A stretch of 48,388 bases of DNA. Source: Defluviitaleaceae bacterium (GTDB taxonomy: Bacteria; Bacillota_I; Bacilli_A; MOL361; Turicibacteraceae). Positions 7,459 to 40,917 of this stretch are shown here, piece after piece. The DNA is taken from contig WRKJ01000102.1 in assembly GCA_009778135.1 (NCBI GenBank), forward strand, positions 1 to 48,388. The letters are read 5' to 3'. The stretch's first letter is position 1, and the number at the start of each line of letters is the position of its first letter. A program made the position numbers and the translations under genes. The notes under the pieces are model-generated. The model was not told where the DNA came from. It did not search any database and worked only from the letters and a program-made list of their open reading frames with translations.

Positions 7459-8697
7459 TCATTTAGATAAAATTTTGATTGTCATATCAAGATAATAAAG
7501 CTTATACTCAACATCATAGTAATGATCTGCCTTGAGCTGTGCTTTAAATCTTTGATCACGATAAGCTTCGACTTCACGTTTTAACTTGTAGAGTCCTTGA
7601 CCACACCCCACTTGCTCTTTCGTGCTAAACCCTTTTTTAAAAAGTCTATCTAACTTTCGATCAGACATTTTTTGACAAGCATTTTTAACCGAGAGTTCAA
7701 AGTGATTTTTACATACATTCAAATAGACGAAAATAGGTCCGTCTAAGCCATGTTCTAACGCATTATCAAATAAGCTTCCCAACATATAAACAACGCTTCC
7801 TAAGCTGACAATCTCATGATGCTCATAATAACCAATATCTAAGTTAAGTTGATTGCTCCTTTCACTGATCACCAGTTTTTCTTCTAATACTTTCCCAAAG
7901 TTTTCTTCATAACTATCTGAAACCTCTATAACGTCAGCTCTTCCGGTAATATATTGTTTCAGTTCACGAGATAAAGCCTTAATTTTTTCATGTTCATCAT
8001 CTGCTTCAATGGCTAAATAAAGACCAGCAAACTTATTGACCAAATCATGATAACGATCAGATGTTTGATCAATTTTTTTTTGAGCCATCATGACAACACT
8101 AAAAAAAGCAGACAAAATCAGGATGATTAATGTCACAAATAAGAACACCTGATCAAAAACGTTATTCATATTAAATTGAAACATGATTAGCAGGGCATAT
8201 ACAATAATGTACAGACAGATAAGTCCAATGATTAAAATCAACCGCTGTTTAATCATTGAAAAAAACTCATAAAGGGAAACTTTCCAACATAATAAGGAAA
8301 AGACAAAAAAGATGATAAATTGCATAACTAATAGTGTAAGCTCATCATTCATCTCCCACACCCCAAAAAGCCAGCCAGTCAATGATTGAACAGTAAATAA
8401 AGTTAAAAATATGGCTACATGGATAATAAAAACATCAAATAACTTGCGTCTTGTTGCAATCTTAATAACCAGAAGTGAGATGACAATTGCAAGCATACGT
8501 ACTATTAACGCGTCGTTTCCTACATGATAATTGATAATACTAAATATACCTGAAAATAGTAGAATGAAAATATGATGTCTCCATTTCTTCTCTAACTTAT
8601 GATCACCACCTAAATTATGACCCATTAAATACATAATGATATAGTCAATTACATTGGTAACGAATAAGATACCCAACCAAGCATGGTTCTCGATCAT
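7459..8697 (-). CDS. AgrC-like sensor histidine kinase (GHKL family)
   Basis: This is a 412-residue protein with about six N-terminal membrane helices (to about residue 205), the plan of peptide-sensing HPK10 kinases. The dimerisation segment carries DRYHDLVNKF, with the phosphoacceptor His in the AgrC-like HDxxN context. The ATPase domain has the N-box LFDNALEHG and a G-box around KGFSTKEQVGCGQGLYKL. It should bind the processed peptide outside and phosphorylate the adjacent LytTR regulator. It follows the regulator gene with a 12-bp gap, so the two are co-transcribed. Confidence 0.8.
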   Translation of the reverse strand: MIENHAWLGILFVTNVIDYIIMYLMGHNLGGDHKLEKKWRHHIFILLFSGIFSIINYHVGNDALIVRMLAIVISLLVIKIATRRKLFDVFIIHVAIFLTLFTVQSLTGWLFGVWEMNDELTLLVMQFIIFFVFSLLCWKVSLYEFFSMIKQRLILIIGLICLYIIVYALLIMFQFNMNNVFDQVFLFVTLIILILSAFFSVVMMAQKKIDQTSDRYHDLVNKFAGLYLAIEADDEHEKIKALSRELKQYITGRADVIEVSDSYEENFGKVLEEKLVISERSNQLNLDIGYYEHHEIVSLGSVVYMLGSLFDNALEHGLDGPIFVYLNVCKNHFELSVKNACQKMSDRKLDRLFKKGFSTKEQVGCGQGLYKLKREVEAYRDQRFKAQLKADHYYDVEYKLYYLDMTIKILSK

Positions 8698-8709
8698 CTT
8701 TTAACACTC

Positions 8710-9450
8710 CTATTTCATCCGTCCAAACAACAAGCCAACCGATTCACGATAAGTTGTTCCGATCGACGATACTTGTTTAACATACTTTAAATGGAGTTCA
8801 TTCACTGCGCCATCATAATGAATCACATAATCAGGATTCACAGCCGTACTTTGATGAACCCTAATCAAGCCTTGAAACTCTGGAAGTAACTTCATGAAAT
8901 CTTCCATTGATTGCATCGGGAATTCTTGTATGGACGTATCCTCCGTTTCTTTATTGTAACATGTCAGCTTAATTCGCTTAGCTCGTTTAACCGTTTCAAC
9001 TTTAACAACTGTAAAAATAGGAATCCGATAACGCTCTTTTCCATCTCTAAGAACCAAAACAGGCTCTTTTCTCCTTTTCGATTTCTTCAGATTAGAGTGA
9101 ATCCTTGGCAAAATATCCTTCGCTTTAAACGGTTTTTTCAACACTAAAAATAAATCCAATTCATTGTTTAACTTCATATGTAGCTTTTCTGTTGTATGAG
9201 AAGATGCGACCATGATTGGAACATCTTCATCTTTTTCACGAACTTCACGGGCAAAATCAATCCCACTCCCATCTGGAAGCTCAATGTCTAAAATGTATAA
9301 ATCAATTTGATTGGTCGTTTTCATTTCGCATGCTTCTTCAATGGTATAAGCTGACAATATGCGTATGCCTTCTCCTAACCCCGCTTTTAATCCCACCGAT
9401 ATTTCTTTGTTAATCACTTTGTCATCTTCTAAAAATAAAATAGTTTGCAT
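8710..9450 (-). CDS. AgrA-like LytTR response regulator
   Basis: This is a 246-residue protein. The receiver domain (1-125) shows the acidic pair ED in LFLEDDK, the phosphorylation Asp in LYILDIELPDGSG and the conserved Lys in VLKKPF. The C-terminal LytTR DNA-binding domain (about 140-240) has the typical IPIFTVVKVET start and ends with LIRVHQSTAVNP. LytTR regulators bind paired 9-bp repeats near peptide-controlled promoters. AGGAGGATAAAAAGT precedes the start at 9450. It is the first gene of a two-gene operon with the AgrC-like kinase. Confidence 0.85.
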   Translation of the reverse strand: MQTILFLEDDKVINKEISVGLKAGLGEGIRILSAYTIEEACEMKTTNQIDLYILDIELPDGSGIDFAREVREKDEDVPIMVASSHTTEKLHMKLNNELDLFLVLKKPFKAKDILPRIHSNLKKSKRRKEPVLVLRDGKERYRIPIFTVVKVETVKRAKRIKLTCYNKETEDTSIQEFPMQSMEDFMKLLPEFQGLIRVHQSTAVNPDYVIHYDGAVNELHLKYVKQVSSIGTTYRESVGLLFGRMK

Positions 9451-9828
9451 TACTTTTTATCCTCCTGATAAATTTTTCAAATTCTTATGACAGAATTTAA
9501 ATCTATAACAACTATTTTATCACATTTTATTTAAATTTCCACCATTTTAGATCATTTTCAATCATTTTTCATCAAAAATTTAAAGGGGATACTCTAAAAC
9601 AGTTAACAAAAAAAGCCCTCAAAGGAACTTGAATCGCTTATGAGGCACTTCTTTTTTATACCATTTATATCTATTATTTATTTTTCTCTATGATTATAGA
9701 CAATATAAGATAGGAAAGCAATTATAAAAAAGAATAATAACGTTTAGAGTAAAATGAAGCAAATGTGATGCGCTGATCCGTTAAGAAATCTCTCATTGAA
9801 AATATACTTTTACAACTTTCGATCTATC
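9451..9828. other. Intergenic region upstream of agrA-like gene
   Basis: No gene is seen. ACAGTTAAC at 9599-9607 resembles an AgrA half-site (ACAGTTAAG). GCCCTCA at 9615-9621 and TGAGGC at 9641-9646 form a weak terminator followed by CTTCTTTTTT. The rest is AT-rich. Confidence 0.4.
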
Positions 9829-9992
9829 TAGTGCAGCAAAACGTAAGTAATAGCCCATATTGACGTGTATCATTTTCAAATACAAGGAAACGAGGACGAC
9901 TCGTACCAATATCGGTACGCAAGGACGAGTTGACGCAGTAGTTGGAAATGAGACGCATGAATAGCGGTGGTTACTTATGTTGTGCTGCACTA
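9829..9992. mobile_element. MITE-like palindromic element
   Basis: Terminal inverted repeats of 22 bp (TAGTGCAGCAAAACGTAAGTAA at the left; the right copy differs at two or three positions) bracket a 164-bp block. The interior continues the palindrome: TGACGTGTATCATTTTC pairs imperfectly with the right half, and CGTACC-AATAT-CGGTACG forms the tip. There is no ORF of substance. It looks like a non-autonomous palindromic repeat, or it could act as a long RNA hairpin. It lies between the Agr-like locus and the next regulator. Confidence 0.65.
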
Positions 9993-10287
9993 GCCTTCAG
10001 ATCTCCTTTCCTAGCTAAACAAAGTATACCACAAATTTCTTCAAAAATTTCATAAAACGGTCAAACGAACGTTTCATACCGCCAAACGACCCTTTCAAAA
10101 TTTGATTCGTTTTCAATTTAACGCAAAACACCTTTATATCCTTTCCAAATGACATTTATAGCATTTTTTCGAAATAAAAAGACAACTTTTGTACTTTTAA
10201 ACAGGTAAATTCCTAATTTGTAAACGTCAATCAATAGATTAAAGCGTTTTTCACGACTTTGAATACAAAAAAAGTAGGTGACTCAAG
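9993..10287. other. Intergenic region with 21-bp-spaced direct repeat
   Basis: No gene is seen. CAAACGAACGTTTCA at 10062-10076 and CAAACGACCCTTTCA at 10083-10097 are 21 bp apart start to start, two helical turns, as in tandem sites for LytTR or OmpR-type regulators. Confidence 0.4.
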
Positions 10288-11121
10288 TCAGCTACAGGAA
10301 ATAAATTCTATTTTAATTTCATTGGATATGTGATAAAGAAAGTCTTTAACACTTGGAATCATTTTTTCAATTGGCTTCTCAAGATGAGTTTCTAGCACTG
10401 GCGTGCCGTAGTAAAGCTCAAAAAATAGCTCAGGATTCTTATTAAATGTCGTAGTAATGAGCCTATTTATTCCATTAAAGATAGATGAATATTGAACAAA
10501 TGCAACTTCTTTAAAAATAGTCGTTAAAGATTTACCTTCTGGTTGATTAATGTCATTAAGTAGATGAAAAAGTGCATTTACTAAATAACCATAAGCCCTC
10601 TTTTTAGAGTCAAAGCCAAACATGTTTAACTTTTCATGTATCATCTGCTTGAGCGCTCCGTCGGGAAGCAATACTTTAGTAGTAGAATACTTGTCACGAT
10701 CTCTTTTATTTTCTTCAAAAGAACAATTCATTTCTTGTTTGATTCCAATCATATCATTAAAATAAGCTAAAACTAATTCATGCTTATAACGATGACCTTT
10801 CTCTAAGTAAAAGCATTTTTTTGTATTTAGAAATGCAACCACTCTTTTGCTAATATAAGAAGTAACAACAATTAATACAGGATCACCTTCAGAGTCCAGT
10901 TCTGGTTTTAGATACTTTAAAACCTCTAAACCTAATTCACCTTTCAGTTGAATATCAAGAACGATACCATCAGGTTGAAGTTTATCTATCGTATTAAGTG
11001 CATCTTCAACATTGTCGACAATGGGAAGAACGTGATAACCACCCTTCGTTAAGCAGTCTTCAAGCTCTTTTGCAAAGCTAAAGTCATCTTCTATGATTAA
11101 AATTTTCTTACGCTCAGACAT
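10288..11121 (-). CDS. Response regulator with Spo0A-C-like output domain
   Basis: This is a 277-residue protein. The receiver domain has the acidic pair in LIIEDDFSF, the phosphoacceptor in GIVLDIQLKGELG, a Thr/Ser switch (VVTSY) and the Lys in YLEKG. The C-terminal 120 residues are helical, with LKQMIHEKLNMFGFDSKKRA, then YLVNALFHLL, then a second block YSSIFNGINRLITTTF. This order matches the Spo0A C-terminal DNA-binding domain. I use the ATG at 11121 (GGAG 8 bp upstream) rather than an upstream GTG. A paralog is at 40111. No partner kinase is adjacent. The gene diverges from the first secreted-peptide module, which it may regulate. Confidence 0.75.
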   Translation of the reverse strand: MSERKKILIIEDDFSFAKELEDCLTKGGYHVLPIVDNVEDALNTIDKLQPDGIVLDIQLKGELGLEVLKYLKPELDSEGDPVLIVVTSYISKRVVAFLNTKKCFYLEKGHRYKHELVLAYFNDMIGIKQEMNCSFEENKRDRDKYSTTKVLLPDGALKQMIHEKLNMFGFDSKKRAYGYLVNALFHLLNDINQPEGKSLTTIFKEVAFVQYSSIFNGINRLITTTFNKNPELFFELYYGTPVLETHLEKPIEKMIPSVKDFLYHISNEIKIEFISCS

Positions 11122-11291
11122 CTCCCACACTCCTTTTAGTAATTATTGTCAATCATTCTAACAGAAATAATGACAGTAAACAACGCTTTTCTGCAAAATA
11201 ATATCAGAAAACGTTTTTATATTCCATGTGACTTTACTTTGATTCTCTATGTAAAACGTGTTGCAAATGATCATGTCTGGTCAATCTTGTC

Positions 11292-11373
11292 AAAAAATGA
11301 GAAATGTTTTTGTGCCTTTTCATGAAAATGAGAAAAAATGAGAAATATTTTTATGCTTTTTTCCATGAAAATG
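11292..11373 (+). repeat. Tandem 40-bp unit with TTTTCATGAAAA palindrome
   Basis: Two units, 11292-11330 and 11333-11373, share AAAAAATGAGAAAT, then a T-rich stretch, then CATGAAAATG. The first has the perfect palindrome TTTTCATGAAAA at 11317-11328. Copy 2 of the leader keeps only one unit, with the palindrome at 15721-15732. This is a likely regulator-binding region. Confidence 0.5.
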
Positions 11374-11416
11374 TTGAAAATGAGAATTTTTGTATAATGA
11401 ATGTCGATTTTTTTTA

Positions 11417-11435
11417 TGGTATAATATGGTATAAT
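11417..11435 (+). promoter_or_regulatory. Promoter (tandem extended -10 boxes) of secreted protein A
   Basis: TGGTATAAT occurs twice in a row, with TATAAT at 11420-11425 and 11430-11435. Copy 2 of the leader has a single TGGTATAAT with TATAAT at 15772-15777. No clear -35 is visible, so activator control is plausible. Confidence 0.6.
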
Positions 11436-11523
11436 ATTATTTATCGATGCATTGAACATGCGTACTTGAATAGACTGACGAGTCTTGGATGGTACGAGAA
11501 GGAGGTTAAAGGATACTTCTGTG

Positions 11524-11550
11524 ATGTTTTCTTTCGTACATTATTTCTAG
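11524..11550 (+). CDS. 8-residue leader ORF, copy 1
   Basis: ATG TTT TCT TTC GTA CAT TAT TTC TAG encodes MFSFVHYF. AAAGGA lies 10 bases before the ATG. The second leader copy (15868-15894) encodes the same peptide with a synonymous CAT to CAC change. A hairpin follows or encloses it (TTCTGTGAT with ATCACACAGAA). It is probably an attenuation or leader peptide. Confidence 0.5.
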   Translation: MFSFVHYF

Positions 11551-11653
11551 AGAATCACACAGAATCTAAGCTTAAAATCAGCGTTAATTGTTGAAAACAG
11601 TTTAATGCTAGACAAGTTATACAATTTGTTTAGTTGAAAAAGGAGAAGATAAT

Positions 11654-12055
11654 ATGAAAGTTAAAAACAAAAAAGTAAAAAAAGGTATAGTAGTTGCACT
11701 GTTAGGGATAGCTTTGGCTGGGGCTGCTGTTCCAGTAGCAGCATCATGGGATACAAGAGCAGGATGGCATTCTTCAGAGATCACTGTGCCACGTAATGGA
11801 TGGTGGACTACTACGGATAGGAGAGCAACTTCTAATACACAACAAGCACGAGTTAATCGTCCAACATATAATGTTGTTAGCAATATACAAAATACCAACG
11901 GTCGGAACTTATCATCGAATCAAACACATAATTCAAATCAAGATATTACACAGTCACATAATACATCAGCTAGTGGCTCTATGATAAGAGGAGCATTCCG
12001 CTCATCAATCATAAATCAGCGTACCAATACAATAAATTTAAGTTGGCGACCATAA
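11654..12055 (+). CDS. Small secreted protein A, bacteriocin-like
   Basis: This is a 133-residue protein with a basic N-terminus and a signal peptide (KKGIVVALLGIALAGAAVPVAAS) cleaved near residue 30. The mature region is rich in Asn, Thr, Ser, Arg and Trp, lacks cysteine, and ends in the strand motif TNTINLSWRP. The start has AAAAAGGAGAAGATAAT upstream. It is the first gene of a module with four ABC transporter genes. Such pairs of secreted polypeptide and dedicated ABC transporter are typical of lactococcin-972-like and other bacteriocin or peptide-resistance loci, but no exact family is recognised. Confidence 0.6.
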   Translation: MKVKNKKVKKGIVVALLGIALAGAAVPVAASWDTRAGWHSSEITVPRNGWWTTTDRRATSNTQQARVNRPTYNVVSNIQNTNGRNLSSNQTHNSNQDITQSHNTSASGSMIRGAFRSSIINQRTNTINLSWRP

Positions 12056-12122
12056 AACACAGTTAAAATATAGTAAATTAAAAAACTTACTTTGAAAAAC
12101 TAATTTTTATCAAAAAGTCAAT

Positions 12123-12238
12123 AACCATACATTTGCTATTTGTCTATTATATAAACTATGGGCAAATAGCAATGTCGTACATAGAAGCAAATAAAAAGAA
12201 TTAATTTTGTTTCTATGTACGACAAGAAAAGTATGGTT
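12123..12238 (+). ncRNA. Three-way-junction RNA element between peptide and transporter genes
   Basis: The outer stem is AACCATAC (12123-12130) with GTATGGTT (12231-12238). Inside it are two perfect hairpins: TTGCTATTTG (12133-12142) with CAAATAGCAA (12163-12172), and TGTCGTACATAGAA (12173-12186) with TTCTATGTACGACA (12211-12224). This closed three-way fold sits in the 219-bp gap, so it may set the expression ratio of peptide to transporter, or be a small mobile palindrome. Confidence 0.55.
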
Positions 12239-12274
12239 CATGGAAAACAGTAATACAGTATTGGAGGAAGTTAA

Positions 12275-13105
12275 ATGAAAGCAATATTACAACAGAAATT
12301 AAAAAAGTTGATTTCTAAAAAATCTACATGGTTAATTATCATTATTTATTTAACAGTAGGTATTGGAAATTACTGGTTTATTCATAGCGAGCATCCTTGG
12401 GCAAATCCATACTTTGAATTTAACACTTCATTTTTTGAATACTTTGTTCTGATTCAGGGTGGTGGCTCAGGCTTTATGTTTATCTTACTTCCTTTGCTGG
12501 TGACCTTATCAACTGGAGATTCTTTTATTAAAACGAGGAGATCTAGCATTTTATCGTATGGTTTAATGCGAACTAATTTAGTATCATATATTCGTAATGA
12601 AGTTCTTTCTACAGGAATGATTAGTTTTATATTTGTTGCTTTATGTCAATTTCTATTATTCTTTTTTAGTTTGTTTTTCACGCAAATTGCAATAGTTAAT
12701 GCTGAGCAAGGGATGATCATTTACGCTGTCGAGTTATTAAATGCAGCTCCCCTTATTTACATTTTATTAATTATTTTTAATAGTTCACTGATGGCATTCT
12801 TCTTTAGTACATTTACAATTGGTTTGAGCATCTTATTCAAAAGCTTATACAGTGCGATATTGCTACCTTACTTGATTTTTATTGGATTATCAGAAATGAT
12901 GATGACAATGCCTTTGATTACACCTTTTTATGGAAAATGGTTTTACAACCTTGCACCTTTAAATATGGTCGGTGGGTATATATGGCTAACATTTTCAATA
13001 TTTGCTGTACCCATGTACTGGTTGGTTTTAAATGCAGGCGCATATGTCGTTGTTGCAAACTACTTTAAGCATGCATTTAGAAAAGAAAAACTTTTATTAA
13101 TTTAA
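12275..13105 (+). CDS. ABC-2-type transporter permease
   Basis: This is a 276-residue integral membrane protein with about six hydrophobic helices, starting after a short basic N-terminus (LKKLISKKSTW). The plan matches ABC-2-type permeases that work with a separate ATPase in peptide export or bacteriocin immunity. TTGGAGGAAGTTAAATG gives the start. It is followed 14 bp later by the ATPase gene. The transported substrate is unknown; secreted protein A is the obvious candidate by position. Confidence 0.75.
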   Translation: MKAILQQKLKKLISKKSTWLIIIIYLTVGIGNYWFIHSEHPWANPYFEFNTSFFEYFVLIQGGGSGFMFILLPLLVTLSTGDSFIKTRRSSILSYGLMRTNLVSYIRNEVLSTGMISFIFVALCQFLLFFFSLFFTQIAIVNAEQGMIIYAVELLNAAPLIYILLIIFNSSLMAFFFSTFTIGLSILFKSLYSAILLPYLIFIGLSEMMMTMPLITPFYGKWFYNLAPLNMVGGYIWLTFSIFAVPMYWLVLNAGAYVVVANYFKHAFRKEKLLLI

Positions 13106-13119
13106 GGAGCTAAAAGACT

Positions 13120-13977
13120 ATGCAAGAAAATAGGATCGAATTTAGGAATGTTACAAAAAAAATTAAAAAACAAGAAATTATTAAAGATATCTCATTCACT
13201 GTAAAAAGAGGAGAAGTTGTCGGTATTATTGGTGAAAATGGATCTGGAAAAACAACAGTTCTACGCTTAGCTTCAGGATTGAGTTATCCTACAAGTGGAG
13301 AGGTTAGCGTCAATGGAAAAATAATAGAAGCAGGAAAATCAGGAATTTTACCAGAAAACATTGGTATTCTCATAGAAGCACCGACATTTATAAAAGAGCT
13401 AACTGGATTTGATAACTTGAATTATTTATCAAAAATCCGAAATGAGATTACAAAAGAAGATATTATCAAAGCAATGGAGCAAGTCGGACTGGATCCAAAA
13501 AATAAAAAGAAAGTAGCTACTTACTCGCTTGGTATGAGGCAAAGGTTAGGGATTGCTCAAGCAATCATGGAGAAACCCAATATCATTTTATTTGATGAAC
13601 CAACTAACGGATTGGATCTTGATGGAATAGAACGATTTGAAGAAATTGTTACGACATTAAAAAAACAGGGAACTAGCTTTATATTTGTTTCCCACAGCAT
13701 GGAAGAAATTGATAAGCTGTGCGATAGCGTATTTAAATTAAAAGATAAGCGGATTATTTTGCAGGAAAGGATGAGAGATTGGCATATTGTATTGAATAGT
13801 CTAGAAGATGTTGAAAGAGTCTCTCAATTAAGAAAAAATGTTAAAATAACTGATCGATATGATGGAAAGCCAGCCATCGTCATACCATTTAAAGTGGATG
13901 AAGATATCAAGATATTTTTTGATCAATTAAAAATTGATTATAAAGTGCTAGTCGGTGAAAATAATGATAAATTTTGA
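13120..13977 (+). CDS. ABC transporter ATP-binding protein
   Basis: This is a 285-residue ATPase with Walker A GENGSGKTT, signature YSLGMRQR, Walker B IILFDEPTNGLD and the switch His in FVSHS. The C-terminal 70 residues are an extra domain as in bacitracin/lantibiotic-type (BcrA/CcmA-like) ATPases. It should energise the three flanking ABC-2-type permeases. AAGGAGCTAAAAGACT precedes the ATG. It overlaps the next gene by 14 bp, indicating coupled translation. Confidence 0.9.
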   Translation: MQENRIEFRNVTKKIKKQEIIKDISFTVKRGEVVGIIGENGSGKTTVLRLASGLSYPTSGEVSVNGKIIEAGKSGILPENIGILIEAPTFIKELTGFDNLNYLSKIRNEITKEDIIKAMEQVGLDPKNKKKVATYSLGMRQRLGIAQAIMEKPNIILFDEPTNGLDLDGIERFEEIVTTLKKQGTSFIFVSHSMEEIDKLCDSVFKLKDKRIILQERMRDWHIVLNSLEDVERVSQLRKNVKITDRYDGKPAIVIPFKVDEDIKIFFDQLKIDYKVLVGENNDKF

Positions 13978-14788
13978 AATACTGAGATATTTAAAGTGTA
14001 AATGGATTAGAATTTTACTTGTTATATGTTTGCTATTTGTAACAGCAGCATTTAGTGTGCAAAATGTATATCGGTTCCTAATTATGTCAGAATTGTTGAC
14101 AGCGTATGATTTGTTTACAATCTCAGATTATATTGTAGGGACATTTAACTCAGCTCAATTTATGATGTATTTCATCCTTCCTGTTCTATTTTCAATTTTG
14201 GTTGCAGATATTATTAGCGCAGATTTGGATGAAAATTTAGACCAATTTTTTTTTACAAGACTTGATAACAGGCTGTCGTATGTCTTTGTGAAAATAAAGA
14301 TGATTATTTTATTCGCTATTGTTTTCACAATTTTGTTTTTAGCTGTCTTATTAATAACAGGCTCATTTTATCATATCTCATTCACGACTAATCATCACCA
14401 CTATTTATTTCTAGCCAATCAAAGACATCATGTTTGGGTATATCTATATGTCGCATCCTTTTTTATATTAGGGCTTATTCTTATTGGAATGATTGTTGTC
14501 ACCTTATCAATTTATCTAAAAAATGCTGGTGTTTCAGTCGGGATTATTGTTTTACTTGGATTTATGCATAATATTTTTTATGTTATTGGTTTCGATGGTG
14601 TACTGGCTTGGTTACCATTTTCACAATATCTATTTGGACATCGCAATTATTTTATGCCCTTCGGATTAGATGTCCCTTATTTCACCACCTTGTTCTCTTT
14701 AATGTACATGATAGGTGGTAGTGGAATTTTGTCGATACTGATGACAAAAAAAATAAGGAACATGGATATCGGACTGGGAAAGGAATGA
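13964..14788 (+). CDS. ABC-2-type transporter permease
   Basis: This is a 274-residue membrane protein with about six helices. The N-terminal FEILRYLKCKWIRILLV is a cytoplasmic amphipathic region entering helix 1, followed by a large loop around SAQFMMYFILPVLFSILVADIISADLDENLDQFFFTR, an ABC-2 permease feature. I use the ATG at 13964 (GGTGA upstream) instead of a GTG at 13955. It overlaps both neighbours and is part of the four-gene transporter operon. Confidence 0.75.
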   Translation: MINFEILRYLKCKWIRILLVICLLFVTAAFSVQNVYRFLIMSELLTAYDLFTISDYIVGTFNSAQFMMYFILPVLFSILVADIISADLDENLDQFFFTRLDNRLSYVFVKIKMIILFAIVFTILFLAVLLITGSFYHISFTTNHHHYLFLANQRHHVWVYLYVASFFILGLILIGMIVVTLSIYLKNAGVSVGIIVLLGFMHNIFYVIGFDGVLAWLPFSQYLFGHRNYFMPFGLDVPYFTTLFSLMYMIGGSGILSILMTKKIRNMDIGLGKE

Positions 14789-15573
14789 TGAAAATGCTAC
14801 CCCTCTTGCAAATAAGATCTATTTTTAATAAAAAGTTCATTCTGATACTATTGAGTGTACTCCTGTTTATTACCTTACTGCAAGCATTGCGGTTAAGACA
14901 GTATTTCTTAGTTTATGAACTAGATGGCACTATTTTGGACTTTCTTTTCTTTACATTGGGAGCGAGAGAAAATCCTACCCTATTCACATTTATATTAACA
15001 TGGACAGTTCTTTCAATTTTTTTCTTGTATGTTTCGTTCCTATCAAAAAAAGTAATTGAAGACTTTGCAGAGCTATTATTATCTAGGGTAAAAACGCGTA
15101 TAAAATTATGGTTTTCAATTTGTATCACCCAGTTTATTTTAAGTGTCATCCTATTTTTAGCATACGGAACAATTGTTATTTTTATCGGTCGTTATTTTTT
15201 TGGAATGGATCTGTCACCTAGTGAATATACAGTTGTATTTTATAGTGATTGGCTTGATATTAACCCTTTTCTATTCGTTAAAATGTGCTTAGTATTTATT
15301 AGTGGTTTACATGCGCTGTTTATGATTGGACAATTTATTTTGTTGGTATTCGAAAATAAAGCGAAGTCAATTATGGTTTTCATTTTAATGATGATGACTG
15401 GAAGTATTTTGTATGTCTATACGAGCGTTCATAGGATTTTCGCATTGTCATTGTATGTTAGTATGATTTCCTTAGGGAAGGACGGAATTTTATTAGGCAT
15501 ACTGGTAAACTTAGGTATTGTTATTTCATTAGTCTTATTTGGTTGTCTACAAATCAGAAAAAAAGATCTTTAG
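14785..15573 (+). CDS. ABC transporter membrane subunit
   Basis: This is a 262-residue polytopic membrane protein with about six hydrophobic helices. It begins in an ATGA overlap with the previous permease. The overall plan resembles its two upstream partners, but sequence conservation looks low. It is the last gene of the first transporter operon; the duplicated leader (copy 2) begins 13 bp after its stop codon. Confidence 0.65.
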   Translation: MMKMLPLLQIRSIFNKKFILILLSVLLFITLLQALRLRQYFLVYELDGTILDFLFFTLGARENPTLFTFILTWTVLSIFFLYVSFLSKKVIEDFAELLLSRVKTRIKLWFSICITQFILSVILFLAYGTIVIFIGRYFFGMDLSPSEYTVVFYSDWLDINPFLFVKMCLVFISGLHALFMIGQFILLVFENKAKSIMVFILMMMTGSILYVYTSVHRIFALSLYVSMISLGKDGILLGILVNLGIVISLVLFGCLQIRKKDL

Positions 15574-15585
15574 TTAACTTCAATG

Positions 15586-16002
15586 ACGCTTTACTGCAAA
15601 ATAATATTAGAAAACGTTTTTATATCCCATGTGACTTTACTTTGTTTCTCTATGTAAAACGTGTTGTAAATGATCATGTCTGGTCAACCATTATCAAAAA
15701 ATGAGAAATGTTTTTGTGCCTTTTCATGAAAATGTTAATTTTTGTCTAATGAATGTTAATTCTTTATATGGTATAATGTTATTTATCAGTGCATTGAACA
15801 TACGTACTTGGATAGGCTGACGAGTCTTGGATGGTACTGGAAGGAGGTTTTAAAGGATACTTCTGTGATGTTTTCTTTCGTACACTATTTCTAGAGAAAT
15901 CACATAGAATCTAAGCCTAAAATTAGAGTTAATTGTTGAAAACAGTTTAATGCTAGACAAGTTATACAATTTGTTTAGTTGAAAAAAGGAGAATAGAATC
16001 GT
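15586..16002 (+). repeat. Duplicated leader/promoter region, copy 2
   Basis: This is the second copy of the 11183-11653 region, about 417 bp. It keeps the TTTTCATGAAAA palindrome, one TGGTATAAT promoter (TATAAT 15772-15777), the hairpin around GGCTGACGAGTCT, the 8-codon ORF and the TTAATGCTAGACAAGTTAT block. It drives a second, unrelated-looking secreted protein. No other gene lies here. Confidence 0.85.
15868..15894 (+). CDS. 8-residue leader ORF, copy 2
   Basis: It encodes MFSFVHYF, identical to copy 1 despite a synonymous change at the His codon and several differences in the flanks. AAAGGA is 10 bases upstream. Confidence 0.5.
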   Translation: MFSFVHYF

Positions 16003-16371
16003 ATGAAAAATAGAAGCAAATATTTATTAGTGTCTTGTTTATCTTGTGTATTTTTATTAAGTGGTAATATACTAGCCGTTCAAGCATCGCCTCTCATATC
16101 TCCAACAATGCTCAACGCTGGTCCTGATGGATTTACGGCTCAAATAGCAATTGTCGGTCATAATAACAGTTTACCGATATATCGTCTAGCGAGAGGAACA
16201 CGTATTCTAAATGGTGCAAATAACATTACTGTTAGAGCTCGACTTTATCGTAATGGTAGAGAAGCCATTAGCTCCCACCTTGCAACAGGGAATACTTCTG
16301 TAACAGTTCAAACACCTACCTATACCGAGCATACAAATGGAACTTTCACAGCATCAGCCCGCGCTAATTAA
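16003..16371 (+). CDS. Small secreted protein B
   Basis: This is a 122-residue protein with a signal peptide (KYLLVSCLSCVFLLSGNILAVQAS). The mature part is beta-rich with repeated strand-turn units (RARLYRNGREAISSHLATGN, VTVQTPTYTEHTNG), suggesting a small extracellular beta-sandwich. The start has AAAAAAGGAGAATAG upstream. It heads the second peptide/transporter module under leader copy 2. It is not clearly similar to secreted protein A beyond plan and position. Function is unknown; bacteriocin or envelope-active peptide is inferred from context. Confidence 0.6.
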   Translation: MKNRSKYLLVSCLSCVFLLSGNILAVQASPLISPTMLNAGPDGFTAQIAIVGHNNSLPIYRLARGTRILNGANNITVRARLYRNGREAISSHLATGNTSVTVQTPTYTEHTNGTFTASARAN

Positions 16372-16471: not shown

Positions 16472-17410
16472 ATGCTAAGAAAGCAAAAATTATTTGTTAT
16501 TTTTAGTTTATTTTTAATGTTAAAGCTTTTTATTTTTTTTTATTTTCAATATTTAATAGCAGAGCAGATGCAAATGTTGGTATCCAATCATCTTTACAGT
16601 ACTTGGCATGTCGTGTTAAATGAATCCGCTGCATCTATTTATGATATTTCTGAATTACTACCAAGCGGTAGTCGTCTTTTTTTTGAGCACACCCAGGACG
16701 GAAATGTACGTACAGTTTATCAAACAAATAATTGGAAACCCCCATTAACAGAAGGTCAATTTTTTGATCAACATACAGCGGACTTTCAAGCCGTTGTAGG
16801 TAGAAATGTAAGGGACAACATGAATGAATCCCGCTATTTTATCATAGATGATTTAAAGTATGACATCGTTGGAATCATTGGAGCAGATTTCCCTTCTCCG
16901 CTAGACAATCTCGTTTTATTAAATCATGTTTCAAACACGCCCTCCCTTCCTATTATTCGTCGGGTCATAGACACAGATCAACCTGGGATCGTCAGACAAA
17001 TCATCGAAAATTTTAGTGGATTTTTAGCAGATGGGTATCAAGAACCAGATTTGATTTTCAATCATCACATTTTTGGACAACTCATACGAGTCAATGTTAT
17101 CCTGATTTCTTTCTTTTTAATCATTCTGATGACCTATAGCTACTTTAAATTGTTTAAACGTGATCATTATATTTACTATTTGTTAGGAAAGCAAAAATAT
17201 AAGATTGGACTCCGCCATATCCTTATACTCACATTCCTCTTTTTTTCTAGCTTATTCGTCATTAAAACAGTTGATTTAATCGTTGGAGATCAAATTATTT
17301 TGAACAATTTTTTTCTTTATTTCATGATTTGGATCATGATTTGCACAATCTATACAGTCATTTTCCTCATAAACAACATAGCTGGAGGGATTTCAAGTGG
17401 AAATAATTAA
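16472..17410 (+). CDS. FtsX/MacB-like membrane protein, short form
   Basis: This is a 312-residue protein with one N-terminal membrane helix, an extracellular domain of about 170 residues and about three C-terminal helices. This is the MacB/FtsX plan, one helix then a large outer domain then three helices. The inner segment contains VVGRNVRDNM and YDIVGIIG, which match the MacB periplasmic-core pattern of FxVVGI strands. No strong ribosome binding site is present (AGAGTGTGATAGT). It overlaps the next gene by 14 bp. It probably pairs with that permease and the downstream ATPase. Confidence 0.65.
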   Translation: MLRKQKLFVIFSLFLMLKLFIFFYFQYLIAEQMQMLVSNHLYSTWHVVLNESAASIYDISELLPSGSRLFFEHTQDGNVRTVYQTNNWKPPLTEGQFFDQHTADFQAVVGRNVRDNMNESRYFIIDDLKYDIVGIIGADFPSPLDNLVLLNHVSNTPSLPIIRRVIDTDQPGIVRQIIENFSGFLADGYQEPDLIFNHHIFGQLIRVNVILISFFLIILMTYSYFKLFKRDHYIYYLLGKQKYKIGLRHILILTFLFFSSLFVIKTVDLIVGDQIILNNFFLYFMIWIMICTIYTVIFLINNIAGGISSGNN

Positions 17411-18800
17411 ACTACTTTATTTTTCCTTACGAAAAAATGGTGTCCTTCAACTTTTAATTGCTGTCTTCACTTTTTTTAGCCTTATCTTTTTAATTACTTT
17501 ATTGCGTTTTTCTCGTCACCATGATCAATTATTAAATGACATAAGTGAGAGAAACGAATTTTTTGAAAATGTCCAAGTATTTCACTTAACAGATGGTCAC
17601 GGTGGCTTTTTTTATGGAGCAGAAGTGCATGAAGAACCGATTTTTTTACAAGCAGACGGCTTGGAAAGGATGAAAGAATTTCACTACAATCTACGTTTAA
17701 GTAATGAATTTTATGTTGCATCCGCTCATACTGGGATGTTTCTTGAAATTGATGCAAGTCAGTTTTTAGGTGGAGAAGCTTTTCACTTTGGCTATGAATG
17801 GGGACTTACAGGTCCACTTGCAGATGGACGGGGCAACTACTTTTATCAAATAAAAGCTGCAAGCCTCGATTATGCCGCTTGGAACTTATCTTCGATGGAA
17901 ATGAAGCATGGTCGTGCATTTCAAGCTGAAGACTTTAGTTTGTTTTCTGGTCGAATTCCTATCATCTTAGGTTACCAATATGCAAATTATTATGAAATTG
18001 GCGATTTAATAACCATGTATTTTCTTGCTTTTCAATTCGACTTTGAAGTCATTGGTATTTTAGCTGAAAACCAGCGATTGTTTAATGAAGTCACAGGTAC
18101 ATATCTTGACTATTCGATCCTTAAACCACTGATTTCTTTCGGAAATCCACTAAACGAAGAAGAGAGAAGGTTTCAATCAATTTATTACAATAATAAGTCT
18201 CTATCTGCTTATATTTTTGTTGATGACACACCAGAAGCTGTTAATCAGATGCATAATATCATTTATACAGCAGCTGCGCATTTAAATATCCCTTACTCAT
18301 TTTCAATGACGGATCACACATTTGTTCTTCATGGTGAAATGGTTAATCTAATTCATCATCACACAGGTGTTATTCATCGATTGTTGATCAATTCGATTTT
18401 ACTGATTGCGCTGATCATTTTATTTTTATCCACGATTAAATATCATCGACAAAAATCTGTTTATCAGGTGCATGCTTTATTAGGTATTTCTAAATCTAAG
18501 CAATGGTTAGCTCTTTTACTAGAAAATTTAATTTTTAACGGTCTTACTGTTTTCATTGCTTTATACTATTCTGTTTTTTATAGCGGGATTATGTATACAA
18601 GTTATCAACGTGCCTTCTTTTCTACTTATGACATATCCAGATGGCCCATCTTTTGGGAAGCTGTGATTTTTGATTCTTTTAGTTTTTATCATCTCTCTTT
18701 ACAGCCTGCTTTAAGCTATAGCCTATTTTTACTTCTCGTTTCAATCATATACCCTACTATTAAAATTCATCAATTGTATAAAGGAGTTCGTTCCAAATGA
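17397..18800 (+). CDS. FtsX/MacB-like ABC permease
   Basis: This is a 467-residue protein with one N-terminal helix, an extracellular domain of about 280 residues and three C-terminal helices. The outer domain has the strand motif FEVIGILAENQRLFNE, typical of MacB-like permeases. A GTG start at 17397 is preceded by GGAGGGA at 6 bases. It ends in an ATGA overlap with the ATPase gene, so the three genes form one translational unit. Such transporters use conformational change for export, signalling or peptide resistance rather than classic uptake. Confidence 0.7.
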   Translation: MEIIKLLYFSLRKNGVLQLLIAVFTFFSLIFLITLLRFSRHHDQLLNDISERNEFFENVQVFHLTDGHGGFFYGAEVHEEPIFLQADGLERMKEFHYNLRLSNEFYVASAHTGMFLEIDASQFLGGEAFHFGYEWGLTGPLADGRGNYFYQIKAASLDYAAWNLSSMEMKHGRAFQAEDFSLFSGRIPIILGYQYANYYEIGDLITMYFLAFQFDFEVIGILAENQRLFNEVTGTYLDYSILKPLISFGNPLNEEERRFQSIYYNNKSLSAYIFVDDTPEAVNQMHNIIYTAAAHLNIPYSFSMTDHTFVLHGEMVNLIHHHTGVIHRLLINSILLIALIILFLSTIKYHRQKSVYQVHALLGISKSKQWLALLLENLIFNGLTVFIALYYSVFYSGIMYTSYQRAFFSTYDISRWPIFWEAVIFDSFSFYHLSLQPALSYSLFLLLVSIIYPTIKIHQLYKGVRSK

Positions 18801-19468
18801 TAGCATTAAAAAACATCACAAGAACATACAAAGTAGGACAACACAAACGCTGTGTTTTAAACGATCTTACACTAGAGATCAAAAAGCATGAATCTATTGT
18901 AATTGAAGGACGTAGTGGATCTGGAAAAACAACGTTACTAAATATTCTAATCGGGTTGGACACCGCATTTACAGGACACTATCAGTTTGAAGAGATGGAC
19001 ATGAGTCATGCAAAGTCTGCAATAAGAGCTAAGTTCCGGCAAGAAAAGCTCGGGATTATCACACAGCACTTTGATTTGCTCGACGATCGGAATGTTTATG
19101 AAAACATTGTTTTAGCGATTCATCATCAAAAATTAAGCGCTGTAGAGAAAAGAAAGCGTATTTCTGAGCTGCTTGATTATGTCAATTTATCTGGCTATGA
19201 AAAGATGCCAGTGAAGCGACTCTCAGGTGGAGAAATGCAACGGGTTGGAATAGCTAGGGCACTAGCGAAACGACCGAAACTCATTGTTGCAGATGAACCG
19301 ACAGGTTCACTTGACGAGCAAACACGAGATGAAGTCTTGACTGTTTTTAAAAAAATGATGCAAGATAAAGTCCAGTTTATTATCGTCACACATGATAAAG
19401 AAGTTTCTGCGATTTGTAATAAAGTCTATCGCTTGCAAGAAGGGAAACTAAAAAATTTATCATCATAG
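18797..19468 (+). CDS. ABC transporter ATPase, LolD/MacB type
   Basis: This is a 223-residue ATPase. It shows Walker A GRSGSGKTT, Q-loop in GIITQHFDLL, signature LSGGEMQR, Walker B LIVADEPTGSLD and switch His in VTHDK. The EPTGSLDE form is typical of the LolD/MacB/FtsE group that pairs with FtsX-fold permeases. It overlaps the permease by 4 bp and has AAAGGAG upstream. It is the only such ATPase in the window, so it could also serve the three FtsX-like permeases at 21.5, 24.4 and 35 kb. Confidence 0.9.
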   Translation: MIALKNITRTYKVGQHKRCVLNDLTLEIKKHESIVIEGRSGSGKTTLLNILIGLDTAFTGHYQFEEMDMSHAKSAIRAKFRQEKLGIITQHFDLLDDRNVYENIVLAIHHQKLSAVEKRKRISELLDYVNLSGYEKMPVKRLSGGEMQRVGIARALAKRPKLIVADEPTGSLDEQTRDEVLTVFKKMMQDKVQFIIVTHDKEVSAICNKVYRLQEGKLKNLSS

Positions 19469-20346: not shown

Positions 20347-20420
20347 TCTAAATTAGAGCTACAAAGGACGTAAAGGTAAGTTCATCTATTTCCCTATTAA
20401 AGGGGAAGGAGGTGAACCCT

Positions 20421-20579
20421 ATGGGAGAGTATTTGTTTGGACTTGTGCAATTATTTGTAGGGGCATTTGTTTCTGCAGCTGCAAAAGTTCTTGCTAAACG
20501 CATGTTTGGCAAAAAGAGCAAGGAAAAACCCACCTTTACGCACGAACAACGCAACAAAGGTGGGAAATCTAAAAACTAG
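20421..20579 (+). CDS. Small membrane peptide, holin-like toxin candidate
   Basis: This is a 52-residue peptide with GAAGGAGGTGAACCCT upstream of the ATG. It has one hydrophobic helix (LFGLVQLFVGAFVSAAAKVL) and a long basic tail. Plan and size resemble type I toxins and holin-like toxins of Bacillota. The leader can fold TTCCC with GGGGAA next to the ribosome binding site. The 3' part of the gene contains a perfect 9-bp inverted repeat (CCCACCTTT at 20529-20537, AAAGGTGGG at 20556-20564). It lies alone, with its own promoter and terminator. Toxicity is inferred, not shown. Confidence 0.55.
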   Translation: MGEYLFGLVQLFVGAFVSAAAKVLAKRMFGKKSKEKPTFTHEQRNKGGKSKN

Positions 20580-20610
20580 ATGAACTACCTTAACGTTGAA
20601 AGTAGCTCGG

Positions 20611-20640
20611 GTGGCGTGTTCGTAGCACGTCACTTTTTTA
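20611..20640 (+). terminator. Terminator of the small membrane peptide gene
   Basis: GTGGCGTG at 20611-20618 pairs with CACGTCAC at 20626-20633, followed by TTTTTTATTT. Confidence 0.8.
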
Positions 20641-20822: not shown

Positions 20823-20901
20823 AAGACATCTTCTCACATGAGAGGGTGAAATGGAAATCTTAGTAGATAGGCGCGATTTTTTCTAAATTTTTTAAAAACT
20901 A

Positions 20902-20930
20902 TTGACAATGCATCACACTTATGATATACT
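20902..20930 (+). promoter_or_regulatory. Sigma-A promoter of secreted protein C
   Basis: TTGACA (20902-20907) and TATACT (20925-20930) are separated by exactly 17 bp. Transcription would start near 20937. Confidence 0.85.
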
Positions 20931-20936
20931 ACCATA

Positions 20937-21090
20937 CAAATGAAAACGCCGGACTTTTAGTAAATGGGAAGATATAGGCATCATTCCTTATTTACTATGG
21001 TCATATCTTGGAGATGCTGTAAAGCAGGAAGGAACAGGTGGTTCTATTGATTGAGTGAAGCGCATCAACTTAAAATTTTAAAAAATGGAG
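20937..21090 (+). promoter_or_regulatory. Structured leader of secreted protein C
   Basis: The 160-base leader can form TAGTAAAT (20958-20965) with ATTTACTA (20990-20997), extended by GGGAA with TTCC. It can also form the competing AAGATAT (20969-20975) with ATATCTT (21003-21009), or GCATC with GATGC at 21013-21017. Alternative pairing suggests a regulated leader. It does not resemble the 11-kb leader. Confidence 0.45.
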
Positions 21091-21099
21091 GAATGGCTC

Positions 21100-21492
21100 A
21101 TGAAAGAAACAAAAAAACTAATTTTATCTTCTTTGGTAACACCTTTAATCGTTGGAAGTCTCTTTTTCTTACCAACGAGTGTTGTTGAGGCGAATACGTG
21201 TACTCAGAATAACAGCCACGTAGGTTGTACTGTGCTTTCACCAGAAGTTAGCGTAAGTGGACAGACATGGAACTATCGTGGCAGAATCCAAGCCTCGCGC
21301 TCAAGTGTAGGAAGTCTGTGGGCACGTGTTGATTCACACCAAGTTGGACAGACCATTGGAGGTTCAGCGGGCACCATTACAGGATCACAAAACACACCTG
21401 TTGGATCATCAAGTGTGACTGCCCTTTCAGTATGGGTAATGGATCGAAATGATGGTAGCACTATGAGGACGATTGGCAGAACTAGCAATTAA
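21100..21492 (+). CDS. Small secreted protein C
   Basis: This is a 130-residue protein with a signal peptide (KLILSSLVTPLIVGSLFFLPTSVVEAN). Two cysteines near the mature N-terminus (NTCTQNNSHVGCTV) could form a disulphide. The rest is beta-rich and Ser/Thr/Gly-rich (VSVSGQTWNYRGRIQASRSS). I use the ATG at 21100 because GGAGGA precedes it; an earlier in-frame ATG overlaps that site. It has its own strong promoter, a terminator-like hairpin, then FtsX-like permeases. The plan repeats the A and B modules. Function is unknown. Confidence 0.65.
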   Translation: MKETKKLILSSLVTPLIVGSLFFLPTSVVEANTCTQNNSHVGCTVLSPEVSVSGQTWNYRGRIQASRSSVGSLWARVDSHQVGQTIGGSAGTITGSQNTPVGSSSVTALSVWVMDRNDGSTMRTIGRTSN

Positions 21493-38537: not shown

Positions 38538-39749
38538 TTAGTGTCTATTTTTCGATGAATTAACCTTTAGAAAAACAAAGATAACGATTAGAGAACTAAC
38601 AATAGAAATAATAAAATTAATAATGATCACATATTCTACGCCAAAAAATCTCAATAAAAGACTACCAAATAATAAGGATAGTATAGCACCTATTCTAGCA
38701 CAAGTTGCTTTAAAAGAAGTCAACGATGAAATCCTTTCTTTTGAAACCTGTTTAGAAAATATATACGTACACAGATAGCCAATGAAAGTGAATAGAGATA
38801 CGAATATCATATATATTAAGATTGATAAAAACGTATTCCCGAAAACAATTAAAATCGGCAATGTGGTAGCTACTAAGCTAATAGTAATGATTAACAATTT
38901 AGAAATCTTTAATTTAATGTTATCTAGAGAGATATTATAAACAAACATACCAATTAATTGAAATATGATATAAAATATGAAAAAATGCTCTGGATTGATA
39001 GATCTATTTAACAAGAAAGCTTGCCATAATTGGAAATGCGTTTGAAAAAAAAATTGACTAAGTATCGTTAAAATAATGATGAGTTTAATATAGATACTGT
39101 TATTAATTTCTTGGAATCCATGAATAATTTGGTTTTTAATCAATTTAAAATCTATTTTATGTTGAATTTGACTTGAGGCTCCTAGGTTTTTGAAAAAAAG
39201 CTGTACAAATAGTAAAGTCATAACAACAAAAAAAATACTAATAAAATAGAAATAAACATCCATTTTACTATATAATATCGACCCTAAACTACTACCTACT
39301 ATCAATGAAATAAATGTTAGTTGATGTGACCTGCTCACAAATTTGTTAAGTTTATCTTGGTCGTTAATTTTAATATCATTAATAAGTTCTGCATCTAAAG
39401 AGCCATCTGTTAAAGCTGTTGATACTCCATATAAAAACCATCCAATAAAAATAATCCAAAAATTGTTAAAATATATAATTGATAAGAATGTTAAAATTAA
39501 TAAAGATTTTCCAATCAAAAATATTGCTTTTCTTGATAAAAAATCTGCTAAGATTCCACTTGGATATTCAAAAATCAAAATTGCTATGCTAAAACTAGTT
39601 TGTATCATAAGAATTTGTGACAATGTCAATCCCTTGTCTAAAAGCAATACGGTTAGCACAGCATGAGGTAGAGAAAGCGAAAGGGTAAGGAGCACGATTG
39701 AAAAATAGTAGACTAAGATGTTATCGTTTAAACTGTTATTCATTTTCAT
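38538..39749 (-). CDS. MFS transporter
   Basis: This is a 403-residue protein with about 12 hydrophobic helices. The loop between helices 2 and 3 reads EYPSGILADFLSRKAIFLIGK, close to the MFS motif (G-x-L-a-D-r-x-g-r-k). It is probably a drug or peptide efflux pump, but the substrate is unknown. I use the ATG at 39749 rather than an upstream TTG; the ribosome binding site (TTAGGG) is weak in either case. It is divergent from the Spo0A-C-like regulator at 40111, which may control it. Confidence 0.8.
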   Translation of the reverse strand: MKMNNSLNDNILVYYFSIVLLTLSLSLPHAVLTVLLLDKGLTLSQILMIQTSFSIAILIFEYPSGILADFLSRKAIFLIGKSLLILTFLSIIYFNNFWIIFIGWFLYGVSTALTDGSLDAELINDIKINDQDKLNKFVSRSHQLTFISLIVGSSLGSILYSKMDVYFYFISIFFVVMTLLFVQLFFKNLGASSQIQHKIDFKLIKNQIIHGFQEINNSIYIKLIIILTILSQFFFQTHFQLWQAFLLNRSINPEHFFIFYIIFQLIGMFVYNISLDNIKLKISKLLIITISLVATTLPILIVFGNTFLSILIYMIFVSLFTFIGYLCTYIFSKQVSKERISSLTSFKATCARIGAILSLLFGSLLLRFFGVEYVIIINFIISIVSSLIVIFVFLKVNSSKNRH

Positions 39750-40110
39750 AATATTAACCCTAACCAATTTGACCCTGTGATAAAATCTTTAATTTTTTTC
39801 ACTTTGAAACATCCCTTTATTCGACCCAGGTCGATTTTTAAATTTTCAGTAACTGTTTAGCTATAAAGGTATTATACACTATTTTCTATTAACATTCATT
39901 AGACAAAAATTAACATTTTTACAAAAAATCTAAATTTCTATTAACATTTGTTAACATTCTTGGATGCAGACGAAAAAAAAGAAAGATTTCAAAGTGTATT
40001 GCTTCATTTTCTCATTTACAAAAACCGACTTTATGTTATATAATCATTATAAAGAACTAGATGTCTATCATGCTGGTATTTAAAATGATAATTGAAAGGA
40101 TAAATAACTG
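39750..40110. promoter_or_regulatory. Divergent regulatory region with TTAACATT repeats
   Basis: No gene is seen. TTAACATT occurs four times: 39889-39896, 39910-39917, 39951-39958 and 39961-39968. The first two are 21 bp apart. The last two form a close pair (TATTAACATTTGTTAACATT). Such repeats suggest binding sites for a regulator of the MFS gene, the response regulator gene, or both. Confidence 0.5.
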
Positions 40111-40917
40111 ATGGCAAAAGATACAATATTAATAATCGAAGATCATTTAGAATTTGCAAATGGGCTAGCAAACTGTTTACAAGAGGGTGGATTCAACACA
40201 CTGCATACAGATAATATCGATGATGCACTTAAAATCATAGAAGAAGTAAGGCCATCTGGGATATCATTGGATATTCAATTAAAAGGGGAACTGGGCTTGG
40301 ATATTTTAAAAACATTGACATCAGAAAAAACTTATGATGACTTTAGTCCTACAATCATCATCGTTTCATCATTCATTGGCCTTCAAACGATGACGATGCT
40401 CCAAAAATATAAAATCCTATATTATGATAAAAGTCTTCCGACTTTTAAATATTCACTGGTCTTGAATACTTTTTCAATGTATCTTGACAATATGATCAAA
40501 CCTTCTTCAATGGTTAGTAAAATTGACATGCAATCTCCAATAATTCCTTCATTTCCTACAGGGGATACTTTAAGAAATGTTATTTCTAAAAAACTAGCTA
40601 TTTATGGATTGAATGTCAAGGCTACTGCTTATAAGCGCTTGATAGAAGGCGTATACTATACACTTCTTCCAGAAAAAAAGCAGAAAAATTCTTTATCTAG
40701 CATTTACATTGATATTCTTCATATTGACTACCACACCGCATTTACCAGTATTAAAAGATTACTTACAGATTCTTTCAGAAGAAATCCCACAGTTTTTAGT
40801 GAATTTTATCATGTCATATCTGGAGAAGCGCTAACTCAATCAAAAGTTCAGTCTGCACCAACGCCTAGTGATTTTATTTACTATATTGTCACAGAAATTA
40901 GGAAAGACTACGTTTAG
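40111..40917 (+). CDS. Response regulator with Spo0A-C-like output domain (paralog)
   Basis: This is a 268-residue protein, a clear paralog of the 10288-11121 product. The receiver shows LIIEDHLEF, the phosphoacceptor in GISLDIQLKGELGLDIL (the same LDIQLKGELGL core as its paralog), SS in IIIVSSF and the Lys in YYDKS. The C-terminal domain has LRNVISKKLAIYGLNVKATAYKRL and YHTAFTSIKRLLTDSFRRNP, the Spo0A-C-like pair of helices. No kinase is adjacent. GAAAGGATAAATAACTG precedes the ATG. It diverges from the MFS gene, with TTAACATT repeats between them. Confidence 0.75.
   Translation: MAKDTILIIEDHLEFANGLANCLQEGGFNTLHTDNIDDALKIIEEVRPSGISLDIQLKGELGLDILKTLTSEKTYDDFSPTIIIVSSFIGLQTMTMLQKYKILYYDKSLPTFKYSLVLNTFSMYLDNMIKPSSMVSKIDMQSPIIPSFPTGDTLRNVISKKLAIYGLNVKATAYKRLIEGVYYTLLPEKKQKNSLSSIYIDILHIDYHTAFTSIKRLLTDSFRRNPTVFSEFYHVISGEALTQSKVQSAPTPSDFIYYIVTEIRKDYV

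Follow-up and report, generated by a model that had tools for sequence, protein, structure and literature searches.

The contig WRKJ01000102.1 of the Defluviitaleaceae bacterium assembly GCA_009778135.1, analysed here over 48,388 nucleotides (the window), carries two similar leaders on its forward strand, each placed before a gene for a different secreted protein. The first of these, W1 (11183..11656), comprises a far-upstream region, an operator, an extended -10 element, a short core, an 8-codon open reading frame (ORF) and the ribosome binding site (RBS) of the downstream protein, hereafter its cargo; the second, W2 (15586..15999), aligns with W1 at 80% identity over query bases 1-471 (BLAST against the window's own genome, E 9.5e-128). 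The duplicated leader described in the initial annotation is confirmed by this alignment, as are the parts that the two copies were said to have in common: the palindrome AAAACGTTTT (11208-11217 in W1, 15611-15620 in W2), the promoter, whose -10 region is duplicated in W1 (TATAATATGGTATAAT), a hairpin, the ORF MFSFVHYF with its CAT/CAC difference, and the cargo RBS. Cargo 1 (11654..12055, forward strand, 133 amino acids) and cargo 2 (16003..16371, forward strand, 122 amino acids) belong to no Pfam family and, as had been claimed, are different proteins, with no convincing similarity to one another. Each is followed on the same strand by genes for membrane proteins and an ATP-binding cassette (ABC) ATPase, at 12275..15573 after cargo 1 (ATPase at 13120-13977, resembling TIGR03740) and at 16472..19468 after cargo 2 (ATPase at 18797-19468, resembling TIGR03608 below its cut-off).

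Searches of the window's own assembly (G000; 2.32 Mb, 109 contigs) by DNA and with a covariance model of the core (R1) returned the same six leader copies, namely W1, W2 and four on other contigs, C29, C30, C71 and C73. In the model search no copy scored worse than E 1e-24, and the next row was not below E 3.6. Common to all is a core of about 70 nt (11435..11508 in W1 and 15777..15850 in W2, forward strand, as matched by the model) which extends from the extended -10 box through a short hairpin to an invariant AAGGAGG; 54 of the 75 alignment columns are invariant between the -10 box and AGGAGG, and the cores are 84-96% identical between copies, with flanks that between classes are at random level. 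On the 5' side of the -10 box the copies fall into a class A (W1, W2, C29 and C30; 66-84% identity) and a class B (C71 and C73; 96%) whose mutual similarity equals that of shuffled sequences (z -1.2 to 0.7). On the 3' side of AGGAGG, W1 resembles W2 (91%), C30 resembles C73 (87%), and C29 and C71 are each distinct. C30 combines the upstream DNA of class A with downstream DNA that it shares with the class-B copy C73, the junction being at the core; the leaders are therefore mosaics in which the core is the common joint. The palindrome region is restricted to W1 and W2 as judged from the extents of the BLAST matches, that of C29 beginning at query base 71 (window 11253) and those of C30, C71 and C73 beginning later. 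The proposal that the leader is a portable control unit gains support from these mosaics and from the presence of the six copies before six different secreted proteins.

In all six copies TATAAT is preceded by TATGN, an arrangement which we take to be an extended -10 element. No TTGACA-type -35 element paired with TATAAT was found on the leader strand of W1 or W2; the -35 place is occupied instead by tandem TGTTAAT-type boxes. In W2 the operator (15731..15760, forward strand) reads AATGTTAAT-N12-AATGTTAAT with a central TGTCTAA, and the 30-mer that it forms, AATGTTAATTTTTGTCTAATGAATGTTAAT, is found exactly three times in the 2.3-Mb genome: in W2, in C30 and at 39888-39917 on the minus strand of the window. 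Allowing up to three mismatches revealed no further site in the genome, and the reversed control gave none. The third copy (39888..39917, minus) stands without a leader core between a gene for a Spo0A-like regulator and a gene whose sequence reads as that of a major facilitator superfamily (MFS)-type transporter (38538-39767, minus); its distance to a TATAAT equals that of the W2 and C30 operators, so that at all three sites TGTTAAT, TGTCTAA and TGTTAAT lie at -39, -29 and -18 before TATAAT. W1 and C29 carry diverged boxes in the -35 place (TGTTGAA, TGTATAA and TGTCGAT at 11372..11408, forward strand, in W1), and C71 and C73, to which the class-B operator is confined, have TGTTAAT at -44 and -34. 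Two further features near these promoters were noticed by eye. In the C73 leader (L006 1725-1770) a TTGCAA-TATAAT pair that resembles another promoter immediately precedes the cargo RBS, and the stretch from the third operator to the MFS-type gene holds short ORFs that overlap one another (39750-39835, minus), possibly a coupled leader peptide.

Three genes for response regulators with a receiver and a Spo0A-like DNA-binding domain diverge from box-bearing promoters: the gene at 10288..11130 (minus) from W1, where the boxes are the diverged ones, that at 40111..40917 (forward strand) from the third operator, and that at L031:11760-12656 from C73. Their assignment rests on profiles and on a structure model. 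Domain scans left the C-terminal part of the proteins unassigned, Pfam Spo0A_C matching the three at 14.6, 13.1 and 12.6 bits, below its cut-off of 25, and TIGR02875 (spore_0_A) matches residues 9-196 of the 10288-11130 protein well below cut-off; a single-sequence phmmer search with the same C-terminal domain found no Spo0A. A four-row profile of the C-terminal domains of the Spo0A-like regulators ranked Spo0A structures 1fc3 (E 0.038) and 1lq1 (E 0.055) first among PDB sequences, aligned with the genome's own Spo0A by hhalign at 80.6% over 105 columns, and had as its best match in six of six relatives from other genera a protein of about 270 amino acids with a typical Spo0A C-terminus. The fold itself was tested on the 10288-11130 protein. 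Single-sequence prediction of the whole regulator gave a mean predicted local distance difference test score (pLDDT) of only 37; modelling the C-terminal domain from the two window paralogues gave a best model with a pLDDT of 77 and a predicted template modelling score of 0.74, the other four models reaching 39-48. Foldseek ranked Spo0A chains at positions 1-7 for this model, and VIA-align superposed it on Spo0A with Z 14.6 and a root-mean-square deviation of 2.3 over 112 residues, the next entry having Z 4.0. By these profiles and this model, the three regulators carry a diverged Spo0A DNA-binding domain behind their receiver. The true Spo0A is a separate gene of the same genome (C73:10345-10656, E 1.3e-44).

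Spo0A acts at targets whose boxes overlap the -35 place, and the paralogues share with it the receiver, the Spo0A-fold domain and tandem boxes over that place. They differ in their Spo0A_C scores (12.6-14.6 bits against 25), in the position of their genes next to bacteriocin-like cassettes in a genome that keeps its own Spo0A, and in the boxes, which read TGTTAAT rather than the 0A box consensus TGTCGAA (PMC3485338).

All six cargoes are distinct secreted proteins of 117-153 amino acids with N-termini that by eye resemble signal peptides, none with a meaningful match in Pfam or NCBIfam, and all six are followed by ABC-transporter or membrane-protein genes. Pairwise similarity among the cargoes is marginal; the best match, W2 with C30 (phmmer E 2e-4 in a search of nine sequences, about 40 residues), makes a distant kinship of some of them possible. 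The downstream partners include an ABC ATPase resembling the lactococcin-972-type TIGR03608 (192.9 of 254.85 bits), a protein resembling bact_immun_7tm TIGR01654 (103.5 of 189.35 bits), both below cut-off, and others resembling the lantibiotic-protection ABC family TIGR03740 and VanZ. Because of these resemblances, bacteriocin-like cassettes are the best label for the units, and the cargoes are probably bacteriocin-like, with putative activity. As in the lactococcin-972-type cassettes defined by TIGR03608 and TIGR01654, a small secreted protein is accompanied by one or more integral membrane proteins and an ABC ATPase; the cassettes described here differ in that their partners score below the model cut-offs and their cargoes match no family.

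AAGGAGG, within GAAGGAGG at 11498..11505 of W1 (forward strand), is the strongest Shine-Dalgarno (SD)-like sequence of the leader; the whole of GAAGGAGG is invariant in all six copies, without a conserved start codon behind it. The distance from AAGGAGG to the cargo start codon is 130-191 nt (148, 155, 130, 145, 191 and 188 nt), and a start codon follows it within 4-12 nt in only two of the six. Two longer conserved frames cross the core, one starting with TTG and the other with ATG (with MVREGG/MVLEGG changes); both show non-synonymous changes, have no SD sequence at a usable distance, and were rejected. A precedent is the STAB-SD of cry3A, an SD-like sequence near -129 which binds 30S ribosomal subunits and blocks RNase J1 (PMC4113751). 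The two are alike in having a strong SD-like sequence that initiates no gene and stands far 5' of the start codon, at about 129 nt in cry3A (PMC4113751) and at 130-191 nt in the present leaders. The present sequence differs in following a conserved segment of about 55 nt with a hairpin and in being reused in six operons; by sequence, the leaders have an SD-like sequence in the 5' untranslated region (UTR) without a translation start, and the core may act as a STAB-SD-like 5' stabiliser.

The 8-codon ORF noted in the initial annotation is not part of this common core. MFSFVHYF is encoded at 11524..11550 in W1 and 15868..15894 in W2 (both forward strand) and is confined to them: all 11 matching loci among 78 cover those two places, and in C29, C30, C71 and C73 the homology to W1/W2 ends at AGGAGG. 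AGGAGG precedes its ATG by 18 nt in W1 and by 20 nt in W2; a weaker AAGGA stands 10 nt 5' of the ATG. The two ORFs differ by a single base, the synonymous CAT/CAC change, which had been taken as a sign of selection on the peptide; 11 of the 63 possible single substitutions, and 7 of the 21 transitions, would be silent by chance. With the ORF present in two of six copies, selection on the 8-codon peptide is not supported, and that reading was rejected. Further copies with a damaged ORF had been named as the observation that would speak against it, and what was found goes in that direction insofar as four further copies have no such ORF at all.

Neither does the hairpin testify to selection. RNAalifold folds the core into three helices, and an outer GUACU stem with an inner AGACU/AGUCU stem is placed, with weak support, at 11462..11495 (forward strand). 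Nine of the 14 helix pairs are invariant, four have changed on a single side and still pair, and one departs from pairing only by an unpaired cell; unpaired cells number 2 of 84, both within the first helix. The pairing-preserving change pointed out earlier is real but proves little: the stem in question shows three one-sided changes of this type and no compensatory one, shuffled 3' letters keep the core pairing equally well, and none of the six cores folds with a remarkable energy (z -1.9 to +0.4). Rfam gave no match at its gathering cut-offs, the best being RF03084 at 20.1 of 41.2 bits outside the core, and a known RNA family was rejected as an explanation. At 11605-11656, over the hairpin before the cargo RBS of W1, the DUF2815 RNA motif of Rfam matches weakly (20.1 bits, E 0.17, gathering cut-off 41.2).

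Taken from the sequence, the reading that we favour, with a probability of roughly 0.5, is that of a bacteriocin-type multi-operon regulon activated by the Spo0A paralogues and equipped with a STAB-SD-like 5' stabiliser. Six promoter-leader cores would drive six secreted-protein cassettes, each with its ABC-transporter or membrane genes. The promoters would depend on an activator, tandem TGTTAAT-type boxes replacing the -35 element upstream of an extended -10, and the activators would be the Spo0A-paralogue response regulators. The conserved 5' UTR of about 60 nt, a small hairpin followed by a strong SD sequence without a gene, would then stabilise the transcript and keep the mRNA of the secreted protein long-lived whatever the cargo, the 8-codon ORF being presumably a hitch-hiking piece of the W1/W2 duplication rather than a working part. 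The known kind to which this system would belong is the multi-operon bacteriocin regulon, set apart here by the unusual family of its regulators and by the candidate stabiliser. Several observations weigh against this interpretation. The boxes are diverged in W1 and C29 and shifted in C71 and C73; canonical 0A boxes are not enriched (tests with TGTCGAA alone gave no significance; only boxes at one mismatch from it occur, in four of six copies, and in neither C71 nor C73 within 70 nt) and chains of boxes do not exceed those in shuffled sequences. In C30 four boxes in phase form a chain that 3 of 2000 shuffles also reached, a statistic that is partly circular because the consensus was fitted to these data. 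Four of the six copies have no adjacent Spo0A-like regulator, C29 and C30 being on short contigs, and about 57 nt of predicted transcript precede the AAGGAGG of the core, which would not stand at the 5' terminus (AGGAGG at about +57 to +62, from a start only predicted from TATAAT).

The operator also fits the geometry of PlnC/PlnD sites, and it may be that the same regulon answers to another activator, the AgrA/PlnC-type LytTR regulator (8710-9450) which with its kinase adjoins W1 (histidine kinase and REC+LytTR regulator, 7459..9450, minus), as in plantaricin regulons. In the pln regulon of Lactobacillus plantarum, PlnC and PlnD bind 9-bp repeats separated by a 12-bp spacer (PMC2714321). The likeness extends to several bacteriocin operons sharing one promoter type with tandem repeats for response regulators (PMC2714321), and the repeats of AATGTTAAT-N12-AATGTTAAT in W2, C30 and the 39917 site each match TACGTTAAT in 7 of 9 bases. 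This geometry, and a PlnC/D score reached by only 1 of 500 shuffles for W2 and 7 of 500 for C30, make the LytTR pair a serious rival. It is nonetheless an unlikely one in our estimate: the geometry holds in just those three of seven promoters, W1 and C29 do not stand out for PlnC/D sites, C71 and C73 need an 11-bp spacer to fit, the additional boxes are spaced at 10 bp and not at 21, and the right repeat overlaps the place of the absent -35 element instead of lying upstream as a PlnC/D-type operator would. The LytTR match itself (E 0.005) is below the Pfam cut-off, all three Spo0A-type genes adjoin operator-bearing promoters, and the pln regulon differs further from the present one in that the latter has a shared 5' UTR core.

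Returning to the core, a ligand- or small RNA-responsive regulatory RNA in place of a passive stabiliser seems to us about as improbable as control by the LytTR pair. Its loop and stem letters are nearly invariant across copies with random flanks and all changes in the inner hairpin stem keep pairing, yet there is no Rfam match, no compensatory change, no terminator in W1 or W2 and no copy in the relatives examined, and the folding scores are those given above. A little less probable still is that the core owes its conservation to recombination, through gene conversion or the exchange of cassettes at stretches of common DNA, and not to an RNA function: C30 does join DNA of two kinds at the core, but the limits of the conserved block, from the -10 box to AGGAGG, suit a feature of the transcript, and the C71 and C73 cores are closer to one another (91%) than to class-A cores (84-88%), matching their upstream class. 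Least credible is control by a leader peptide, in which the cargo would be regulated by translating the 8-codon ORF or another short ORF carried by each copy. MFSFVHYF is intact in both W1 and W2, and after AGGAGG C73 could encode MLKCRLKK (at 6 nt) and C29 MRFVKSIKH (at 10 nt). C30, sharing the downstream DNA of C73, has GTA for ATG and has lost the stop too, so that the six copies have no conserved short ORF in common; the W1 and W2 ATGs are moreover 18 and 20 nt from AGGAGG, and attenuation by a leader peptide was rejected since the ORF is in two of six copies and no terminator was found in W1 or W2.

The leader was not found outside its own genome in searches of relatives and of viral, GTDB and plasmid sequences. 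Among 60 relatives searched by DNA, five besides the genome itself gave short AT-rich matches only; among 395 genomes of the class, model R1 returned the own genome and two rows at E 0.005 and 0.009; seven genomes of the family at E<=5 gave only weak rows, the best at E 0.04; an exact pattern had no match in viral or GTDB contigs, and plasmids yielded a single weak match of 55 nt. A scan for the regulator across one named genome found only a distant receiver-domain match. A congener (G001) also has such a regulator (C31:4073), which about 0.9 kb with one small ORF separates from a cassette of a secreted 150-amino-acid protein with membrane and ABC genes; this proximity speaks for the regulon that we favour. 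That cassette lacks the operator, and apart from two weak rows no leader was detected at E<=5 in the G001 genome, which counts as another point against that regulon. On the 5' side of the G001 cassette (L055 3170-3360), AAAGGAGG is directly followed by ATG TAG, an SD sequence without a usable gene.

Other elements of the window deserve mention. A 166-bp palindromic element at 9828-9993 recurs in the genome, with 43 match rows of which many span almost its whole length, and represents a repeat family resembling miniature inverted-repeat transposable elements or BOX elements. At 20380-20640, and again at L003 around 1920-2110, a small hydrophobic ORF accompanies a structured-looking RNA in a unit that resembles a putative type I toxin-antitoxin system, and similar DNA lies beside the C29 leader. 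A different structured-looking leader, recognized by eye at 20900-21085, precedes a further secreted protein (21085-21492).

A more tentative proposal, again made from sequence, is that this lineage of spore-former relatives duplicated Spo0A and dedicated the copies to the control of an arsenal of bacteriocins, with tandem TGTTAAT boxes as their targets where a -35 element would be, and placed the same stabiliser leader on every weapon, the leaders being swapped between cassettes by recombination within the leader itself. Our searches of open-access literature listings turned up nothing that links Spo0A paralogues with bacteriocin cassettes. Were the proposal true, it would show how a master regulator of sporulation can be duplicated and turned to the control of genes for competition, and it would supply a compact natural module of promoter and stabiliser through which very different secreted proteins are co-regulated.

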